DNA of 64,000 bases from Limisphaerales bacterium (GTDB lineage: Bacteria; Verrucomicrobiota; Verrucomicrobiia; Limisphaerales; SXTU01). The notes beneath the pieces are model-generated. The model saw only the letters and a list, made by a program, of their open reading frames with translations. It was not told the origin of the DNA and did not search any database. Both the position numbers and the translations under genes were made by a program. Where the stretch lies: assembly GCA_009773355.1 (NCBI GenBank), contig WRPG01000011.1, positions 1 to 64,000 on the forward strand, read 5' to 3'. This document shows, in pieces, positions 6,457 through 27,287 of this stretch; the first letter of the stretch is position 1, and each line of letters begins with the position of its first letter.

Positions 6457-7686
6457 GTGACCGGTTTCAACCAGCAACTCACCGCCGAGCTGTCCGTTTT
6501 GCGCGAGACAGATTTGCTGCGTGAGCTGCGGCGGGTGGAGTCGCCGGCGGGCACGCGGGCCGTCATCGCCGGGCGCGAACTGCTGAACTTCTCGTCGAAC
6601 GACTACCTCGGGCTGGCCAACCACCCCGCGCTCAAAGCGGCGGCCATCCAGGCAGTCGAGCAGTGGGGCGCTGGCTCCGGCGCGTCACGGCTCGTGTGCG
6701 GCTCGCTGGCGGTGCATCACGAGCTGGAGGAGGCGCTGGCGGCCTTCAAGGGCACGGAGGCGGCGCTGGCCTTCTCCACCGGCTACGCGGCGGCGCAGGG
6801 AGCCATCGTCGCGCTGCTGGGCAAGGGCGACGTGCTCATCGTGGACAAGCTGATCCACGCCTGCATCGTGGACGCGGCGAAGTTGTGCGGGGCGAAACTG
6901 CGCGTGTTCCGTCACAATGATTTGAACGACCTGGAGGTGAAGCTCAAGTGGGCGGCGAAGCAAACGCGGAACGCGGAACGCGGGACGCGAAACCTCAGGC
7001 CGCGAGTGCTCATCATCACGGAGAGTGTCTTCAGCATGGACGGCGACCTCGCGCCGCTGCGGAACCTCGTCGAGCTGAAGGAGCGGCACGGCGCGTGGCT
7101 GATGGTGGACGAGGCGCACGCGACCGGGTTGTTCGGCGAGCGGCGCAGCGGCCTGGTGGAGGAATTTGGCCTGACCGGCCGCGTCGAGATTCAGATGGCG
7201 ACGCTGGGCAAGGCCGTGGGCGCGGCGGGCGGGGCGATTTGCGGAAGCCGCAAGCTCGTGGACCTGCTGGCGAACCGGGCGCGGAGTTTTGTCTTTTCCA
7301 CGGCTCCGGTGCCCGCTGCGGCAGCAGCAGCGCGGGCGGGGCTGGAGCTTATCCGGTCGCAGGAAGGGGAGACGCGGCGACAGCGGCTGTGGCTGCTGGT
7401 GGAGGAATTGAAGCGCGTGCTGATCAACGCAGGGTTCCCGCCGTCAGCGGTGCGCGCGCCGATTGTGCCGGTGCTCGTGGGCGCGGAGGCGCGGGCGATG
7501 AACCTGTCCGGCGCGCTTCGGGAGGCCGGCGCGTTCGTGCCGGCGATTCGTTATCCCACTGTCGCGCGCGGCGCGGCGCGGCTGCGCTTCACCGTCTCGG
7601 CGGATCACACGGCAGAAGACTTGGCCGCATTGGGCGAAACGCTCGCTGCAACCGCCAACCGCCAATCGCCAATCGCCAATGCATAA
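6457..7686 (+). CDS. bioF: 8-amino-7-oxononanoate synthase
   Basis: PLP-dependent alpha-oxoamine synthase condensing pimeloyl-ACP/CoA with L-alanine in biotin synthesis. Visible family motifs: 'NFSSNDYLGLANHP', 'GSGASRLVCGS', 'DEAHATGLFG' and the PLP lysine in 'MATLGKAVGAAGGAI' (about Lys252). GTG 6457 (VTGFNQQLTAEL) gives 409 residues; the track's further upstream GTG adds an unlikely basic leader. Two repeat-like pieces lie in the frame: a mid-protein insert (KQTRNAERGTRNL, 6961-6998) and a C-terminal tail (ATANRQSPIANA). It overlaps bioA by 8 bp (bioA ATG at 7679). Confidence 0.93.
   Translation: MTGFNQQLTAELSVLRETDLLRELRRVESPAGTRAVIAGRELLNFSSNDYLGLANHPALKAAAIQAVEQWGAGSGASRLVCGSLAVHHELEEALAAFKGTEAALAFSTGYAAAQGAIVALLGKGDVLIVDKLIHACIVDAAKLCGAKLRVFRHNDLNDLEVKLKWAAKQTRNAERGTRNLRPRVLIITESVFSMDGDLAPLRNLVELKERHGAWLMVDEAHATGLFGERRSGLVEEFGLTGRVEIQMATLGKAVGAAGGAICGSRKLVDLLANRARSFVFSTAPVPAAAAAARAGLELIRSQEGETRRQRLWLLVEELKRVLINAGFPPSAVRAPIVPVLVGAEARAMNLSGALREAGAFVPAIRYPTVARGAARLRFTVSADHTAEDLAALGETLAATANRQSPIANA
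6961..6998. repeat. Low-complexity repeat insert in bioF
   Basis: Near-tandem CGCGGAACG-type octamers encode 'QTRNAERGTRNL' between 'KLKWAAK' and 'RPRVLIITESVFS', where the family normally has a short loop. In frame and probably surface-exposed. Confidence 0.5.
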
Positions 7687-9211
7687 GCTCGCCCGTCTCG
7701 ACCACGCGCACGTCTGGCACCCGTTCACGCAGATGCGCGACTGGCTGCGGCGCGAGCCGATTATCATCACGGCAGGGCAGGGGGCCGTGCTGCGCGACGT
7801 GCGCGGGCGCGAGTTTCTGGACGCGAACTCCTCCATCTGGACGAACCTGCATGGGCACAACCACCCGAAGCTGAACGCGGCGCTGAAGCGGCAACTCGGC
7901 AAAATCGCGCACAGCTCGGCGCTGGGTTTCGCGAATGAGCCGGCAAGCTTGCTGGCGGCGAAGCTGGTCGGAATGGCGAAAGGCGAATCTCGAATGGCGA
8001 ACCATGACACCGCACGCGCGGCGGCAGATTCGCAATTCGCAATTCGCAGTTCGCAATTGTCGAAGGTTTTTTTCTCCGACGATGGCTCCACCGCGATGGA
8101 GGTTGCGCTGAAGCTGGCCTACGAGTTCACGCGCCGCACACGCGGGCCGAAGGCGAAGCCGCGCTTCCTTTCGCTCGCGGGCGCGTATCACGGCGACACG
8201 GTCGGCGCGGTGAGTCTCGGTCACATTGACCTGTTTCACCAAGCCTACGGCGGGCTGCTCTTCAAGACGGACCAGGTGATGTCGCCGTATTGCTACCGCT
8301 GCCCGTTCAACCGCGCGCAGCCGGAGCGGGCGGACGCGCGCGAGTATCGCAAGTGCAACTGGGAATGCGTGGACAAGGTCGAGGCGAAGTGCGCGGCGGC
8401 CCGGAAACGCGGGAATGACTATGCGGCCTTCGTCTTCGAGCCATTGATGCAAGGTGCGGCGGGGATGATCCCGCAGCCGGCAGGCTGGCTGAAGCGCGTG
8501 ACGGACATCGCGCGCGGGCACGGTGCGCTGCTGGTGGCGGACGAGGTGATGACGGGATTTGGCCGCACTGGCGGAGCAGGTGAGAAAGTGGGAAAGCGTG
8601 AAAGTGAGAGAGGCGCACCTGCTCGCCAGCCCACTTTCCCACCTGCTCACTTTCTCACCGGCTCCTCCGCAGCAGGCGTGCAGCCGGACTTTCTCGCGCT
8701 GGCGAAGGGGCTGACCGGCGGCTATCTGCCGATGGCGGCCACGCTCACGACGCAGGCGGTGTTCGACGCGTTTCTCGGCGACTACGAGGAGTTCAAGACG
8801 TTCTTCCACGGGCACAGCTACACGGGCAACCAGCTCGGCGCGGCGGCGGCGCTGGCGAGCTTGGATTTGCTCGCGGGCAGGGCATCCATCGCCGCACGAG
8901 CGCGACTGGAGAAGGACTTGCGCTGCGAACTGAAGTCGCTCTGGTCGCTGCCCAACGTCGGCGATGTGCGGCGGGTCGGGCTGGTCGCGGGCGTCGAGCT
9001 GGTGCGTGCCTGGCGGACGCGCGAGCCGTTCGACCTGCGCGAGCGCGCGGGCATCCGCGTGTGCGAGGCGATGGCCCGGCGCGGCGTCCTGACGCGGCCG
9101 ATTGGCAACGTGGTCGTGCTGATGCCGCCGTATTGCACAACGACGGCGCAGGTGCGGCGGATGGTCGAGGCGCTGCGCGAGGCGGGGGAGGAAGTGCTGG
9201 GCGGAAGGTAG
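7679..9211 (+). CDS. bioA: Adenosylmethionine-8-amino-7-oxononanoate aminotransferase with two repeat-derived inserts
   Basis: Class III PLP aminotransferase using SAM to convert KAPA to DAPA in biotin synthesis. Motifs: 'HVWHPFTQM', 'SIWTNLHGHNHPKLNAAL', 'FFSDDGSTAMEVALKLAYE', 'VADEVMTGFGRTG' and the PLP lysine 'FLALAKGLTGG' (Lys343). At 510 residues it exceeds the usual 425-460. The excess sits in two repeat-encoded inserts: about residues 98-128 ('GMAKGESRMANHDTARAAAD' onwards) and about residues 298-330, right after GFGRTG. Its TAG stop (9209-9211) is part of the GTAG head of a family B repeat. bioB and bioD are not in the window. Confidence 0.93.
   Translation: MHKLARLDHAHVWHPFTQMRDWLRREPIIITAGQGAVLRDVRGREFLDANSSIWTNLHGHNHPKLNAALKRQLGKIAHSSALGFANEPASLLAAKLVGMAKGESRMANHDTARAAADSQFAIRSSQLSKVFFSDDGSTAMEVALKLAYEFTRRTRGPKAKPRFLSLAGAYHGDTVGAVSLGHIDLFHQAYGGLLFKTDQVMSPYCYRCPFNRAQPERADAREYRKCNWECVDKVEAKCAAARKRGNDYAAFVFEPLMQGAAGMIPQPAGWLKRVTDIARGHGALLVADEVMTGFGRTGGAGEKVGKRESERGAPARQPTFPPAHFLTGSSAAGVQPDFLALAKGLTGGYLPMAATLTTQAVFDAFLGDYEEFKTFFHGHSYTGNQLGAAAALASLDLLAGRASIAARARLEKDLRCELKSLWSLPNVGDVRRVGLVAGVELVRAWRTREPFDLRERAGIRVCEAMARRGVLTRPIGNVVVLMPPYCTTTAQVRRMVEALREAGEEVLGGR
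7971..8062. repeat. Inverted low-complexity repeat pair inside bioA (insert 1)
   Basis: The first arm has GGCGAA/GGCGAATC/CGAATGGCGAA units; the second has ATTCGCAATTCGCA-type units, roughly its inverse complement. The pair is translated in frame as a hydrophilic insert between the conserved 'AAKLVGMA' region and 'SKVFFSDDGSTAME'. Confidence 0.65.
8571..8670. repeat. Inverted low-complexity repeat pair inside bioA (insert 2)
   Basis: Arm 1 contains GGAGCAGGTGAGAAAGTGGG; arm 2 contains the inverse (CCCACTTTCCCACCTGCTC, then CACTTTCTCACC). It is translated in frame as 'GAGEKVGKRESERGAPARQP' and onward, replacing the short segment that normally joins GFGRTG to the PDF-LALAKG block. Confidence 0.75.
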
Positions 9212-20768: not shown

Positions 20769-22046
20769 ATGCTGAAACTCGCCATCATCGGCACCGGCAT
20801 CGCCGGCCTGGGCTGCGCGCACTTCCTCCAGTCCCGCTTCGACCTCACGCTCTTCGAGCAGGCGGATTACCCCGGCGGCCACACCAACACCATCGCCGTC
20901 CCCGAAGGCTCCGGCCACGTCGCCTTCGACACCGGCTTCATGGTCTATAACGAGGTCACCTACCCGCACCTCACCCGCCTCTTCCGCGAGCTGGGCGTGC
21001 GCGTGAAGCCGACCCAGATGTCCTTCAGCGTCCAGCACCGGCCCAGCGGCATCGAGTTCAGCGGCAGCAGCCTGAACCACCTCTTCGCCCAGCGCCGCAA
21101 CCTCCTCCGCCCGCGCTTCTGGCGCATGCTCGCGCAGGTCAACCGCTTCAACACCGAGGCCGTCGCCGCGCTCGCCGACCCGGCGTTCGCCGCGATGACC
21201 GTGGCCGACTACGTCCGCGCGCGCGGCTACGGCGAAGACTTCCTCCGCCTCTACCTCGTGCCCATGAGCGGCGCGGTCTGGAGCACGCCGCCCGAGCTGA
21301 TGCTGGAGTTCCCCGCCGTCACGCTGCTGCGCTTCTTCCACAACCACGGCTTCCTTGGCCTCCACACCCAGCACCCGTGGCTCACCGTGGACGGCGGCGC
21401 GAAGCACTACGTGGACAAGCTCCTCGCCCCGCTCCGCGCGCAAAACCGCGTCCGCCTCAGCGCGCGCGTCACCGCCGTCCGCCGCACCGCCGATGCCGTG
21501 GCCGTCACCACCGCCGACGGGCGCACCGAGCATTTCGACCGCGTCATCCTCGCCGCCCACGCCGACCAATCCCTCGCCCTCCTCACCGACGCCGACCCCA
21601 CCGAGCGCCGGCTCCTCGGCGCGTTCCGCTACCAACCGAACCTCGCCACCGTCCACACCGACGCCTCCGTGATGCCCCGCACGCGCCTCGCGTGGTCCTC
21701 CTGGAACTACCGCGTCGAGCGCGACGCCTCGGGCCGCGAAATTCCCGCCACCATCTACTGGATGAACTCGCTGCAAGGCGTCTCCGACCGCGAAAACTAC
21801 TTCGTCTCCATCAACGGCGCGGACCAGATCGCCCCCGACAAAATTCTGCGCCGAATCGAGTATCACCACCCGCTCTTCAACCTCGCCGCCACGCAAGCCC
21901 AAGCCGAACTCCCGTCACTCAACACGCGCCCGGCAAATCGAGTCTTCTTCGCCGGCAGCTACTTCCGCTACGGCTTCCACGAGGATGCGTTCGCCTCCGC
22001 GCTGGATTGCAGCCGGGCGGTGAGTAGCGCAAAGATTTGGGAATGA
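20769..22046 (+). CDS. FAD-dependent amine-oxidase-like oxidoreductase of the lipid-modification cluster
   Basis: A 425-residue flavoprotein: Rossmann motif 'LAIIGTGIAGLGCAHFL' at residues 4-20, 'PGGHTNTI' and a C-terminal FAD motif ('RVFFAGSYFRYGFHEDAF'). Proteins of this family lie directly upstream of DUF1365 and cyclopropane-fatty-acid-synthase genes in many bacteria, as here. An oxidation or desaturation step on acyl chains is a reasonable inference. Its TGA overlaps the DUF1365 ATG (22043-22046). Confidence 0.88.
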   Translation: MLKLAIIGTGIAGLGCAHFLQSRFDLTLFEQADYPGGHTNTIAVPEGSGHVAFDTGFMVYNEVTYPHLTRLFRELGVRVKPTQMSFSVQHRPSGIEFSGSSLNHLFAQRRNLLRPRFWRMLAQVNRFNTEAVAALADPAFAAMTVADYVRARGYGEDFLRLYLVPMSGAVWSTPPELMLEFPAVTLLRFFHNHGFLGLHTQHPWLTVDGGAKHYVDKLLAPLRAQNRVRLSARVTAVRRTADAVAVTTADGRTEHFDRVILAAHADQSLALLTDADPTERRLLGAFRYQPNLATVHTDASVMPRTRLAWSSWNYRVERDASGREIPATIYWMNSLQGVSDRENYFVSINGADQIAPDKILRRIEYHHPLFNLAATQAQAELPSLNTRPANRVFFAGSYFRYGFHEDAFASALDCSRAVSSAKIWE

Positions 22047-23128
22047 GCGCCCCGCAACGTAGCTCGACATTCCAATGTCGAGATTTGGCTGGCGAGGACG
22101 CGTCGCGCGGGCAGCCCGCACCGATTGCGTCGCGGAACTCGACATCGGAATGTCGAGCTACTGGTGCGCTCCGCTCCTGCCTCTACGACTGCTCCGTGAT
22201 GCACCACCGCCTTGCGCCCAAGGAGCACCACTTCCGCTACGGCATCTTCCAGTTCTGCCTCGACCTCGACGAACTCGACACCCTCTCCACCCGCCTCCGC
22301 CTCTTCCACCGCAACCGCCCCGCCCTCTACCGCTTCAACGACCGCGACCACCTGCCCTCCCCCGGTAGCAGCCGACGTGAGGAGGCTCCATCTCCAATCG
22401 GAAAGCGGAAAGCGGAAAGCGGAAATCAAAGTCAGAGCCTCCTCACGTCGGCTGCTACTCAACCGAAACCCCATCTCCCATCTCCCATCTCCGATTCCCT
22501 CTCCGCGAAAGCGACGCTCCTCGCCTGGCTCGCCTCCCAAGGCCTCCCGCTCCCGGCCGACACCCGCGTCCTCCTCCTCACCCACTGCCGGGTCTTCGGC
22601 TACATCTTCAACCCCGTCTCGTTCTACTTCTGCCTCGACGCCCAAGATCGCCCGCTCTGCGCCGTCGCCGAAGTCGGCAACACGTTCGGCGAACAGAAAC
22701 CCTTCCTCCTCGGCCCCGAGCACTTCGACGGCGATGGCCGCTTCCGCCGCATCGTGCCGAAGCACTTTTACGTCTCGCCCTTCTTCGCGCTCGACCTCGC
22801 CTTCGACTTCAAGCTCCGCGTCCCCGGCGAACAGCTCGACATTCACATTGACGACCGCGAAGGCGACCGCCCTGTCCTGCTCACTGCCCTCACCGGCCGC
22901 CGCGTTCCGCTCACGGACGGCAATCTCGCGCGCCTCACGCTCAAGTATCCGCTCGTCACCCTCCGCGTCATCACGCTCATCCACTGGCACGCGCTGAAGC
23001 TGTGGTGGAAGAACGTCCCCTGGCACCGCAAGGCCGCGAACCCGCATCTCCAGCAAGGCGTGTTCAACCCGCATGAGTCACTGCGTGGCGGGGACACTCC
23101 TGTCCCCGCATCCCATCGCCACCACTGA
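22043..23128 (+). CDS. DUF1365 protein interrupted in frame by three palindromic elements
   Basis: A 361-residue reading frame beginning at an ATGA overlap with the oxidoreductase gene. The DUF1365 core is seen in 'LRSCLYDCSVMHHRLAPKEH', 'FRYGIFQFCLDLDEL', 'LTHCRVFGYIFNPVSFYFCL' and 'KHFYVSPFF'. After MSAPQ a family B doublet (22059-22161) is inserted. A family A doublet (22365-22458) interrupts the region after 'FNDRDHLPSPG', and a family C doublet (from 23085) provides the C-terminal 'GGDTPVPASHRHH' and the stop. The frame stays open through all three. Function of DUF1365 is unknown beyond association with cyclopropane/furan fatty-acid genes. Confidence 0.85.
   Translation: MSAPQRSSTFQCRDLAGEDASRGQPAPIASRNSTSECRATGALRSCLYDCSVMHHRLAPKEHHFRYGIFQFCLDLDELDTLSTRLRLFHRNRPALYRFNDRDHLPSPGSSRREEAPSPIGKRKAESGNQSQSLLTSAATQPKPHLPSPISDSLSAKATLLAWLASQGLPLPADTRVLLLTHCRVFGYIFNPVSFYFCLDAQDRPLCAVAEVGNTFGEQKPFLLGPEHFDGDGRFRRIVPKHFYVSPFFALDLAFDFKLRVPGEQLDIHIDDREGDRPVLLTALTGRRVPLTDGNLARLTLKYPLVTLRVITLIHWHALKLWWKNVPWHRKAANPHLQQGVFNPHESLRGGDTPVPASHRHH
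22059..22161. repeat. Family B REP doublet, copy 2, in frame at the DUF1365 N-terminus
   Basis: Head GTAG, stem CTCGACATT/AATGTCGAG around CC; the opposite arm is GTAG with stem CTCGACATT/GAATGTCGAG-type pairing. The interior between arms differs from copy 1 at 9208-9280. It is translated as about 34 extra residues after MSAPQ. Confidence 0.9.
22365..22458. repeat. Family A REP doublet, copy 2, in frame inside the DUF1365 gene
   Basis: Two identical inverted arms: head GTAG, stem (C)AGCC/GGCT(C), loop GACGTGAGGA. The interior contains near-tandem GGAAAGC units. Translated as 'SSRREEAPSPIGKRKAESGN' and onward. Confidence 0.92.
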
Positions 23129-23160
23129 TGCGCCCCAGCGGACAGGAGTGTCCGCCCCAC
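23085..23160. repeat. Family C inverted hairpin doublet, copy 1, at the DUF1365 3' end
   Basis: Arm 1: head GTGG, hairpin CGGGGACA/TGTCCCCG with loop CTCC. Arm 2 on the minus strand: head GTGGGG, hairpin CGGACA/TGTCCG with the same CTCC loop. Stem bases covary. The DUF1365 stop TGA (23126-23128) lies between the arms. Confidence 0.85.
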
Positions 23161-23217
23161 TCCATGATTTCCCCGCCTTGCGCCTTGGCGTCATCGCGTT
23201 AGCATTCCGCCGCCCAC

Positions 23218-24486
23218 ATGAGCACCATCACCCGTTCCGAAGCCGACGTGCCGGTCAAACCGCTCCGTGCCGGCTTCTACCAGCGCGCCATCGAGCAGTC
23301 GCTTGCGCGCATGACGCTCGGCTGCCTGCACGTCACGCTCCCCGGCGGCGCGACGCGGCGCTTCGGCCACGCGCCGCAGGTCACGGCCCACCTCCACGTC
23401 AACCGCCCCGAGTTCTTCAAGCGCTGCGTGCTCTACGGCGACATCGGCTTCGGCGAGGCCTACGTGGACGGCGATTGGGACACGGATAATCTCCCCGCAG
23501 TGCTCGGCTGGTTCATCGAGAACGTCGAGCAAGCTCCCGGCATGTCCGGCTCGCACGCGCAACCCGCCGCGTTGAACCTCCTGCGCTTCGGCAACCGCCT
23601 GAAACACCTCTTCCGCCCCAACTCGCGCAAGTGGAGCCGCCAAAACATCGCCGACCACTACGACCTCGGAAACGAGTTTTACAAGTTGTGGCTCGACGAA
23701 TCCATGACCTACTCGTGTGGCATCTGGACCGCGCCCGAGCAGACCATCGAGTCCGCGCAGGCTGCAAAATACGAGGCGCTTTGCCGCACGCTCCGGCTCA
23801 AGCCCACCGACCACGTCCTGGAAATCGGCTCCGGCTGGGGCGGCCTCGCCTGCCACGCCGTGAAGAAATACGGCTGCCAGGTCACTACGCTCACGCTCTC
23901 CAAGGCCCAGCATGACTACTGCCGTGAGCGCTTCGTCCGCGAGGGCGTCGGCGACAACGCCGAGGTCCGCCTCCAGGACTACCGCGACGTCACGGGCCGC
24001 TTCGACAAAATCATCTCCATCGAGATGCTCGAAGCCGTCGGTGAAAACTACGTGGACGGCTATTTCTCCCAGTGCCATCGCCTGCTCAAGCATCACGGCC
24101 TGCTCGCGCTGCAATACATCACCAGTCCCGACAGCCGCTACCACCAGTTCACCAAGGGCGTGGACTGGATTCAGAAGCACATCTTCCCCGGCTCGCTGCT
24201 CATGTCCATCGGCCGCGTGAACCAGGCCATTGACCGGATGACCGACCTGCACATGTTCGAGCTGCGCGACCTCGGCCTGCACTACGTCCGCACGCTCCAG
24301 GAGTGGCGCAAGCGTTTCAACGCCCACCACGACGAGCTGCACAAGCTCAAGTTCGACGACCGCTTCATCCGCAAGTGGAACTACTACCTGAGCTACTGCG
24401 AGGCCGCCTTCGCCCACCGTAACATCAGCGTGGTGCAGGCCATCTACACGCGCCCGAACAACCGGACGCTGATGCGAACGGAGTGA
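23218..24486 (+). CDS. Cyclopropane-fatty-acid-synthase-like SAM methyltransferase 1
   Basis: A 422-residue protein of the CFA synthase family, transferring a SAM methyl or methylene to an unsaturated phospholipid acyl chain. An N-terminal lipid-binding domain is followed by 'NIADHYDLGNEFYKLWLDES', 'MTYSCGIW', the SAM motif 'VLEIGSGWGGLA' (about residues 200-211) and 'ISIEMLEAVGE', then 'QYITSPDSRY' and 'WIQKHIFPGSLL'. It is the central enzyme of the cluster. Related cluster members in alphaproteobacteria make methylated or furan fatty acids; the product here is not known. Its TGA begins the low-complexity repeat at 24482. Confidence 0.92.
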   Translation: MSTITRSEADVPVKPLRAGFYQRAIEQSLARMTLGCLHVTLPGGATRRFGHAPQVTAHLHVNRPEFFKRCVLYGDIGFGEAYVDGDWDTDNLPAVLGWFIENVEQAPGMSGSHAQPAALNLLRFGNRLKHLFRPNSRKWSRQNIADHYDLGNEFYKLWLDESMTYSCGIWTAPEQTIESAQAAKYEALCRTLRLKPTDHVLEIGSGWGGLACHAVKKYGCQVTTLTLSKAQHDYCRERFVREGVGDNAEVRLQDYRDVTGRFDKIISIEMLEAVGENYVDGYFSQCHRLLKHHGLLALQYITSPDSRYHQFTKGVDWIQKHIFPGSLLMSIGRVNQAIDRMTDLHMFELRDLGLHYVRTLQEWRKRFNAHHDELHKLKFDDRFIRKWNYYLSYCEAAFAHRNISVVQAIYTRPNNRTLMRTE

Positions 24487-26068: not shown

Positions 26069-27205
26069 ATGATTGACTCCCTGCTCGAACGCAATCTCCT
26101 CCCCGACCCGCTGCTCCGCTTCGGCATCCGCCGCCTGCTGGCGCAGCGGTTGCGCGAGGAGGACAAGGGCAGCGCCGAGGCGCAGCGGGCGCACTTGCAG
26201 GCACTCATCGAGGAGCTGCGCCGCTCGCCCATCGCCATCGAGACGGCGGCGGCGAACGAGCAGCACTACGAGGTGCCTACGCGCTTCTATCAGCTCTGCC
26301 TCGGGCCGCGGTTGAAATACAGCGGCGCGCTCTGGCCCGCCGGCGTCACCACGCTCGCCGAGGCCGAGGAGCGGATGCTCGCCCTCTACGCCGAGCGCGC
26401 CCAACTCGCCGACGGTCAGGACATCCTCGAACTCGGCTGCGGCTGGGGCTCGCTGTCGTTGTGGATGGCCGAGAAGTTTCCCAAGGCCCGTATCACCGGC
26501 GTCTCGAATTCGCGGACGCAAAAGGAGTTCATTGACGCCGAGGCGGCGCGGCGCGGCTTGAAGAATCTCCGCATCATCACCTGCGACATGAACCGGTTTG
26601 AGCCGCCCCCCTCGGAGAGTAGGAGACGACGTGAGGAGTCTCTAACTTCCTTCGCAGCGTCCGACTTTCAGCCAGCTCCCGATTCTGAGCAGAGCCTCCT
26701 CACGTCGTCTCCTACGGGTGAGTTCGACCGCGTCGTCTCCATCGAGATGTTCGAGCACATGAAGAACTACCAGCGGCTCATGGCGAACGTCGCCCGTTGG
26801 CTGCGGCCGGGCGGACAGCTCTTCGTCCACATCTTTACGCACCGGGAGTTCGCCTACCACTTCGTCGCGCGGGACGAGACGGACTGGATGGCGCGCTACT
26901 TCTTCACCGGCGGCATCATGCCCAGCGACGACCTGCTGCTCTACTTTCAGGACGACCTCCGCCTCGTGAACCACTGGCGCGTCAACGGCCAGCACTACGA
27001 GAAAACCGCGAACGCATGGCTTGCGAACATGGACGCGAACGAGCCGGAGATTCGCCGCATCTTCGCCGCGACTTACGGCACGGGAAACGAAACCAAGTGG
27101 TGGGTTTACTGGCGGGTCTTCTACATGGCCTGCGCGGAGCTGTGGGGCTACCGCGAAGGCAACGAGTGGCTCGTCTCGCACTACCTGTTCCGCAAGCCCG
27201 CGTAG
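26069..27205 (+). CDS. Cyclopropane-fatty-acid-synthase-like SAM methyltransferase 2, with in-frame REP insert
   Basis: A 378-residue methyltransferase distinct from the first. Motifs: '[20 protein letters not shown]', '[14 protein letters not shown]', SAM-binding '[20 protein letters not shown]' (about 119-138), '[13 protein letters not shown]' and '[12 protein letters not shown]'. Between '[10 protein letters not shown]' and '[11 protein letters not shown]', where related enzymes have a short loop, a family A doublet encodes about 32 residues (from '[17 protein letters not shown]'). The stop codon TAG (27203-27205) is part of the GTAG head of another family A copy. It ends the lipid cluster. 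Confidence 0.9.
26619..26715. repeat. Family A REP doublet, copy 3, in frame inside methyltransferase 2
   Basis: Arm 1: GTAG, stem GAGAC/GTCTC, loop GACGTGAGGA. Arm 2 (minus strand): GTAG, GAGAC/GGCTC (one mismatch), same loop. Arm 2 looks like a hybrid of two stem variants. Confidence 0.92.
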
Positions 27206-27287
27206 GAGACGACGTGAGGAGTCTCTAACTTCTCTTCCGCGTTCCGGCTTCCGAGGTTGAATGGAGACTCCTCACGTCGTCTCCTAC
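27202..27287. repeat. Family A REP doublet, copy 4, at the methyltransferase 2 3' end
   Basis: Both arms have GTAG, stem GAGAC/GTCTC and loop GACGTGAGGA. The head supplies the TAG stop of methyltransferase 2. The other end lies 7 bp from the stop of the convergent LmbE gene, so it sits exactly between two gene ends. Confidence 0.93.

Follow-up and report, generated by a model that had tools for sequence, protein, structure and literature searches.

How can a conserved enzyme gene hold three repeat elements of different families and still keep an open frame from end to end? A DUF1365 gene of a lake bacterium raises this question. It lies in a 64,000-nucleotide stretch of DNA (the window) in which the original prediction had placed three palindromic pairs within one open reading frame. 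We found all three where they had been predicted, in a frame that is open from ATG to TGA (22043-23128, 361 codons) and whose product matches PF07103 nearly end to end (profile positions 1-233 of 235, E=1.1e-73). The locus has the following features.

20769-22046, forward strand: FAD/NAD-binding amine-oxidase-like gene (UfaD-like; PF01593, PF13450).
22043-23128, forward strand: DUF1365 gene (UfaO-like; PF07103, E=1.1e-73), host of the three elements.
22059-22161, no strand assigned: family B REPIN, 103 nt, codons 6-40, with arms GTAGCTCGACATTCCAATGTCGAG (left) and CTCGACATCGGAATGTCGAGCTAC (right).
22365-22458, no strand assigned: family A REPIN, 94 nt, codons 108-139, with 24-nt arms that are 100% complementary.
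22399-22425, forward strand: (CGGAAAG)n heptanucleotide array, in frame, within the spacer of element A.
22470-22492, forward strand: (CCCATCT)3 heptanucleotide array, in frame, directly after element A.
23078-23167, no strand assigned: family C palindromic pair, with arms at 23078-23105 and 23140-23167 that are 82% complementary.
23126-23128, forward strand: TGA stop codon of the DUF1365 gene, from the spacer of element C.
23218-24486, forward strand: cyclopropane-fatty-acid-synthase-like gene (UfaM-like; PF02353, E=4.3e-86).

The B arms (22059-22082 and 22138-22161) are 96% complementary, and the A arms lie at 22365-22388 and 22435-22458. The genome holds 124 exact matches to the B arm, 75 exact matches to the 22-nt core of the A arm and 16 matches to the 14-nt core of C, compared with 0 for the reversed-pattern control in each case; a 16-nt core of A is present in 93 of the 196 genomes of the order. 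The inserts are 35 (B), 32 (A) and 14 (C) residues long, and the repeat-derived codons (6-40, 108-139 and 348-361) number 81 in total, within the predicted range of 80-90. Family C had been expected to form both the C-terminus and the stop. It does supply the last 14 codons, 348-361, and the TGA, but only half of the element falls within the gene: 'RGGDTPVPASHRHH' and the stop at 23126-23128 come from its left arm and spacer, and its right arm is 3' of the gene.

At B (flanks CCCGCAAC and TGGTGCGC) and A (flanks CTCCCCCG and TCAACCGA), the two elements checked, we detected no target-site duplication around the terminal inverted repeats, and we rejected a classical MITE on this ground. An Rfam scan of 21500-23800 returned no match. 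Self-splicing or intein-like removal, considered from Pfam and Rfam searches only, is not needed, since the elements are in frame.

REPINs are miniature non-autonomous elements made of two facing REP palindromes and moved by RAYT transposases, which are HUH enzymes with a single catalytic tyrosine. We built arm families from de novo 16-mers and counted arms with up to 4 mismatches in 2.05 Mb (33%) of the 6.16-Mb, 162-contig genome, comprising a set of stretches and the window. Thirteen families yielded 396 arms, compared with 7 for reversed controls. They share a common plan in which a tag (GTAG, GGAG, GTGC or GTGG) is followed by a hairpin-forming sequence; the A and B arms start with GTAG, and the tag of the C arm is of the GTGG type. 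In the same 2.05 Mb, arms formed 161 head-to-head pairs, compared with 3 tail-to-tail pairs and 8 same-orientation neighbors, and this excess of head-to-head pairs indicates a REPIN architecture. The elements are both inverted pairs of REPs and dispersed at high copy number.

Three Y1_Tnp (PF01797) matches are present in the genome. One is a RAYT gene (contig C27, 209748-210536) that encodes a PNHVHVL (HUH) motif, carries exact B arms on each side and is flanked by two B REPINs; its C-terminus extends into a B arm. Against the NCBIfam model REP_Tyr_transpos, this protein scores 56.6 (E=2.5e-15), below the cut-off of 80. A second Y1_Tnp gene, flanked by D-type REPs, is above the cut-off for the NCBIfam REP-associated tyrosine transposase. 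Among sister species, G010 has a Y1_Tnp gene between F arms, and G002 has a RAYT (Y1_Tnp) gene between C-like arms with 3-4 mismatches. A search of the genus for a RAYT with family A arms found none, and we infer that this family, too, is mobilized by a RAYT. To judge from sequence, the elements are REPINs, that is, head-to-head pairs of GTAG-type REPs that are apparently mobilized by RAYT transposases. Elsewhere in the genome, a D-type REPIN links the end of a 4-hydroxyproline epimerase gene to a RAYT gene without a change of frame, giving a 599-aa open frame (L151:3952-5748; G000:C27:163952-165751).

The gene could be a pseudogene, or its B element could be 5' untranslated with the true start downstream; according to a published caution, N-terminal REPs in many cases reflect errors of annotation (PMC3733652). 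The DUF1365 ATG shares 4 nt with the stop of the upstream UfaD-like gene (ATGA at 22043-22046), and this start-stop overlap is retained as ATGA, GTGA or TTGA in relatives, most congeners among them. An in-frame TTG at 22085, within B, is a potential start that would bypass the left arm of the element. No in-frame ATG, GTG or TTG separates the right arm of B from the SCLYDC motif, and the next in-frame starts after B, at 22196 and 22199, both fall within this invariant motif. Because the overlap is conserved and no in-frame start precedes SCLYDC, production of the whole protein would require translation of at least the right half of B. The core of the gene has a dN/dS of 0.10-0.15 when compared with seven relatives and is under purifying selection, and the PF07103 domain continues on both sides of the middle element A. 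With the coupled start conserved, dN/dS near 0.1 and a single Pfam domain flanking element A, we consider a pseudogene or an untranslated B very improbable.

An AlphaFold2 prediction from 46 sequences shows a confident core, in which 198 residues score 90 or higher and most blocks exceed 90. Confidence is low at about residues 1-40, 110-150 and 350-361, where the three inserts lie, and the model places these in predicted disordered tails and one loop of the protein. UfaO of furan fatty acid synthesis is a DUF1365 protein whose companions are ufaD and ufaM (PMC7380195). In both the ufa genes and the window, a DUF1365 gene lies between an FAD/NAD oxidoreductase gene and a methylase/cyclopropane-synthase-like gene, and the window locus has the PF07103 domain together with the ufa-like neighbors; the window gene differs from UfaO in its three added repeat-derived segments. 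By analogy, we regard its product as a UfaO-like lipid enzyme with a putative role in furan fatty acid synthesis.

We compared the DUF1365 gene across same-genus genomes, G046 (same order, different family) and named metagenome-assembly loci, mostly from Verrucomicrobiota. The two internal sites were occupied as follows, G000 being the source genome.

N-terminal site: family B in G000; GTAGCGGCGGTCTGTGACCGCC in G002.
N-terminal site: GTAGTCGC-type pair in G005, G009 and G010; GGAGCGCCGAGC-type pair in G001, G003 and G046.
Middle site: family A in G000 and G005; GTAGGGCGCG pair in G002 and G046.

Four families thus occur at the N-terminal site (B, GTAGCGGCGGTCTG, GTAGTCGC and GGAGCGCCGAGC), and no REPIN insert is found there in G004, G006 or L094. 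Two or three families occur at the middle site, where L097 has an A-like insert, judged by translation, and the remaining species have short or heptamer-rich loops. We saw no REPIN-sized insert elsewhere in the DUF1365 gene of close relatives. Counting one event per family and site, we arrive at a minimum of six independent insertions in two small regions. Empty orthologs and other families at the same sites bear out the view that mobile palindromic elements were inserted in frame. This recurrence fits a tolerance of these positions for new sequence; a target preference may account for it instead. Metagenome misassembly at short repeats could in principle have made the arrangement, given 162 contigs and arms that are themselves short repeats. 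However, the sequence on either side of each element belongs without interruption to one conserved gene, and genomes assembled separately have comparable in-frame inserts at these sites, leaving misassembly scarcely credible. In the G046 genome (L089; G046:C18), the DUF1365 gene is as close to that of the window as those of congeners (dS 0.32) and has the same kind of N-terminal insert, a closeness that points to transfer, contamination or misplacement of a genome assigned to another family.

In our reading, which we hold with high confidence, the three REPINs in the DUF1365 gene are read through and have been kept where extra residues are harmless. Three REPINs would have landed just past the start, in a variable surface loop and across the stop. 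Each would have left the reading frame open, so that the ribosome would read through it and add a disordered peptide (35, 32 and 14 residues), and insertions that shifted the frame, bore a stop or hit the core would have been purged by selection. The elements would then persist because their positions tolerate extra residues. The inserts are probably translated, and we infer that the added peptides are neutral. Alternatively, the peptides may have been recruited for function and be held by positive or purifying selection. Two other genes lend this idea some weight: in most species the loop after FGHFLPFP of an aminotransferase contains a recognizable, decayed A3 element, and in AroA an A2 element is common to G000 and G007. 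The DUF1365 inserts, in contrast, vary in family and length across species and are absent in some, are predicted by AlphaFold2 to be disordered, and share their loops with unrelated heptamer arrays. We therefore view recruitment as unlikely.

The original prediction had offered two accounts of the open frame: either the elements are tuned to be translatable, or selection has kept only harmless insertions. Using a phased fifth-order Markov gene finder trained on the stretches, we scored the 120 bp that flank every REPIN on either side. Same-strand coding was found on both sides of 32 REPINs; in frames assigned by our own gene caller in 33% of the genome, 29 of these were in frame and open, 0 were in frame with a stop and 3 were out of frame. 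The 29 of 32 compare with an expectation of 1/3 (binomial P=2e-11), in a ratio that describes survivors, as genes wrecked by an out-of-frame insertion are no longer called coding. Because gene-end elements, such as B and C in DUF1365, were scored one-sided, the in-frame figure is conservative. REPINs were also depleted within genes, where 32 of 161 lay, compared with about half of random positions (P=3e-15). Both the frame count and the intragenic depletion support selection that keeps only harmless insertions.

That the elements were shaped for translatability, having lost stops so that insertion into a gene costs little, gained initial support from whole elements, which have 4.03 of 6 frames open compared with 3.46 in dinucleotide shuffles, an excess that intergenic copies show equally. 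Copies of one family are non-independent, however. Across seven arm superfamilies, 38 of 42 frames are open compared with 35.0 +/- 1.85 expected, with no family below P=0.3, and spacers have 4.90 open frames compared with 4.88 in shuffles; neither arms nor spacers differ significantly from shuffles in translatability. The GTAG tag retains a TAG stop in one frame, and the strong depletion of copies in genes implies that insertion is still costly. We dropped tuned translatability, which now appears quite unlikely, once arms, spacers and superfamilies had been analyzed apart; selection acting as a filter explains the data better.

The host genes of REPINs include addA (four), addB, ybeY, aroA, aminotransferases, an ABC transporter and a sulfatase. 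An addA-like gene (L173:10617-14633; G000:C132) holds four in-frame REPINs of three families, and its addB-like neighbor (L173:14845-18501; G000:C132) holds one. Two DUF1549/DUF1553 paralogs (L192:4176-6641 and L232:11750-14560) carry different REPINs, B and A1, in the same loop after SATYRQ. The window has two further A2 REPINs, at 26619-26715 and 27202-27287; of these, one lies inside the gene called at 26069-27205 and the other spans its end. Most in-frame copies (26 of 29) have lengths of 1 or 2 mod 3, with the boundaries of non-GTAG families chosen by us. We therefore rejected an exact GTAG-to-CTAC insertion that alters no further base; as lengths are mostly not a multiple of 3, insertion must be accompanied by the gain or loss of bases. 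Empty loops are highly variable, and the only sign of a target consensus is a slight bias toward C near -3/-4, beyond the tag.

Rickettsia palindromic elements (RPEs) had been proposed as the nearest precedent. Like RPEs, the elements described here are palindromic repeats that lie in frame in protein genes and are apparently translated. R. conorii RPEs, however, end in CGTC (PMC3733652), whereas the present elements have GTAG or GTGG/GGAG/GTGC tags and, for some families, a RAYT. We rejected assignment to the RPE class because A and B carry GTAG and C a GTGG-type tag in place of CGTC, although in-frame insertion is common to both; the elements behave like RPEs and are not classed as RPEs. Intragenic GTAG REPs are a closer precedent: a 2013 study described in-frame cases, which were most numerous in the verrucomicrobium Opitutus terrae and among which repair genes were prominent, and most O. 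terrae GTAG-20 elements are mutated to GTGG (PMC3733652). Both sets are GTAG-tagged palindrome dimers that lie in frame in ORFs, add 20-30 residues each, sometimes occur several to a gene and often hit repair genes (PMC3733652), here addA four times and addB once. In contrast to the published cases, three families here share one short gene, and different families occupy the same two sites across sister species, to which recB of two Xanthomonas species offers a partial parallel (PMC3733652). As in the REPIN/RAYT systems (PMC3116915), REPs form head-to-head pairs at high copy number and a RAYT gene lies between copies of its own REP, here family B; REPs are 'extragenic' by name, whereas about one fifth of the pairs here lie within open frames.

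In-frame intragenic REPs are thus already published, including in a verrucomicrobium, and the DUF1365 case is a member of this group. What is new is the recurrence of unrelated families at fixed loops, the genome-wide frame count and the presence of heptanucleotide arrays in the same loops. Reported intragenic REPs are hard to tell from annotation errors, and DUF1365 provides a clean comparative case, with insert-free relatives, unrelated inserts at the same sites, purifying selection and a family with a known assay. Repeats of this kind can lengthen conserved enzymes by tens of residues, and with this gene the tolerance or recruitment of new peptide by proteins can be tested directly.

A 7-base period is by a wide margin the commonest short tandem repeat in the 2.05 Mb, with 73 arrays (0-1 in shuffles), followed by period 14 with 16 arrays. 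The arrays have mostly 2-4 copies, and 41 of the 73 lie well inside genes. Sister species have different heptamers at the position of (CCCATCT)3, and some A-family REPIN spacers are heptamer arrays. In YbeY (L243-L252) and AroA (L267-L278), one and the same loop carries either a REPIN or a heptamer array, depending on the species; a class-III aminotransferase (L279-L287) and DUF1365 likewise contain inserts of both types. The A3 element after FGHFLPFP of the aminotransferase is old, decaying and common to several species. We tentatively suggest, while thinking it more doubtful than probable, that REPINs and heptamer arrays are coupled routes that add in-frame sequence to shared enzyme loops, and that one may seed the other. 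If so, new disordered segments would keep arising in the proteins of this genome, and some of them would become fixed. Further heptamer arrays lie in the window at 6963-6983, 7660-7680 and 8028-8048, and peptides encoded by such arrays include IGNRQSAIGN and FKVQGSRFK.
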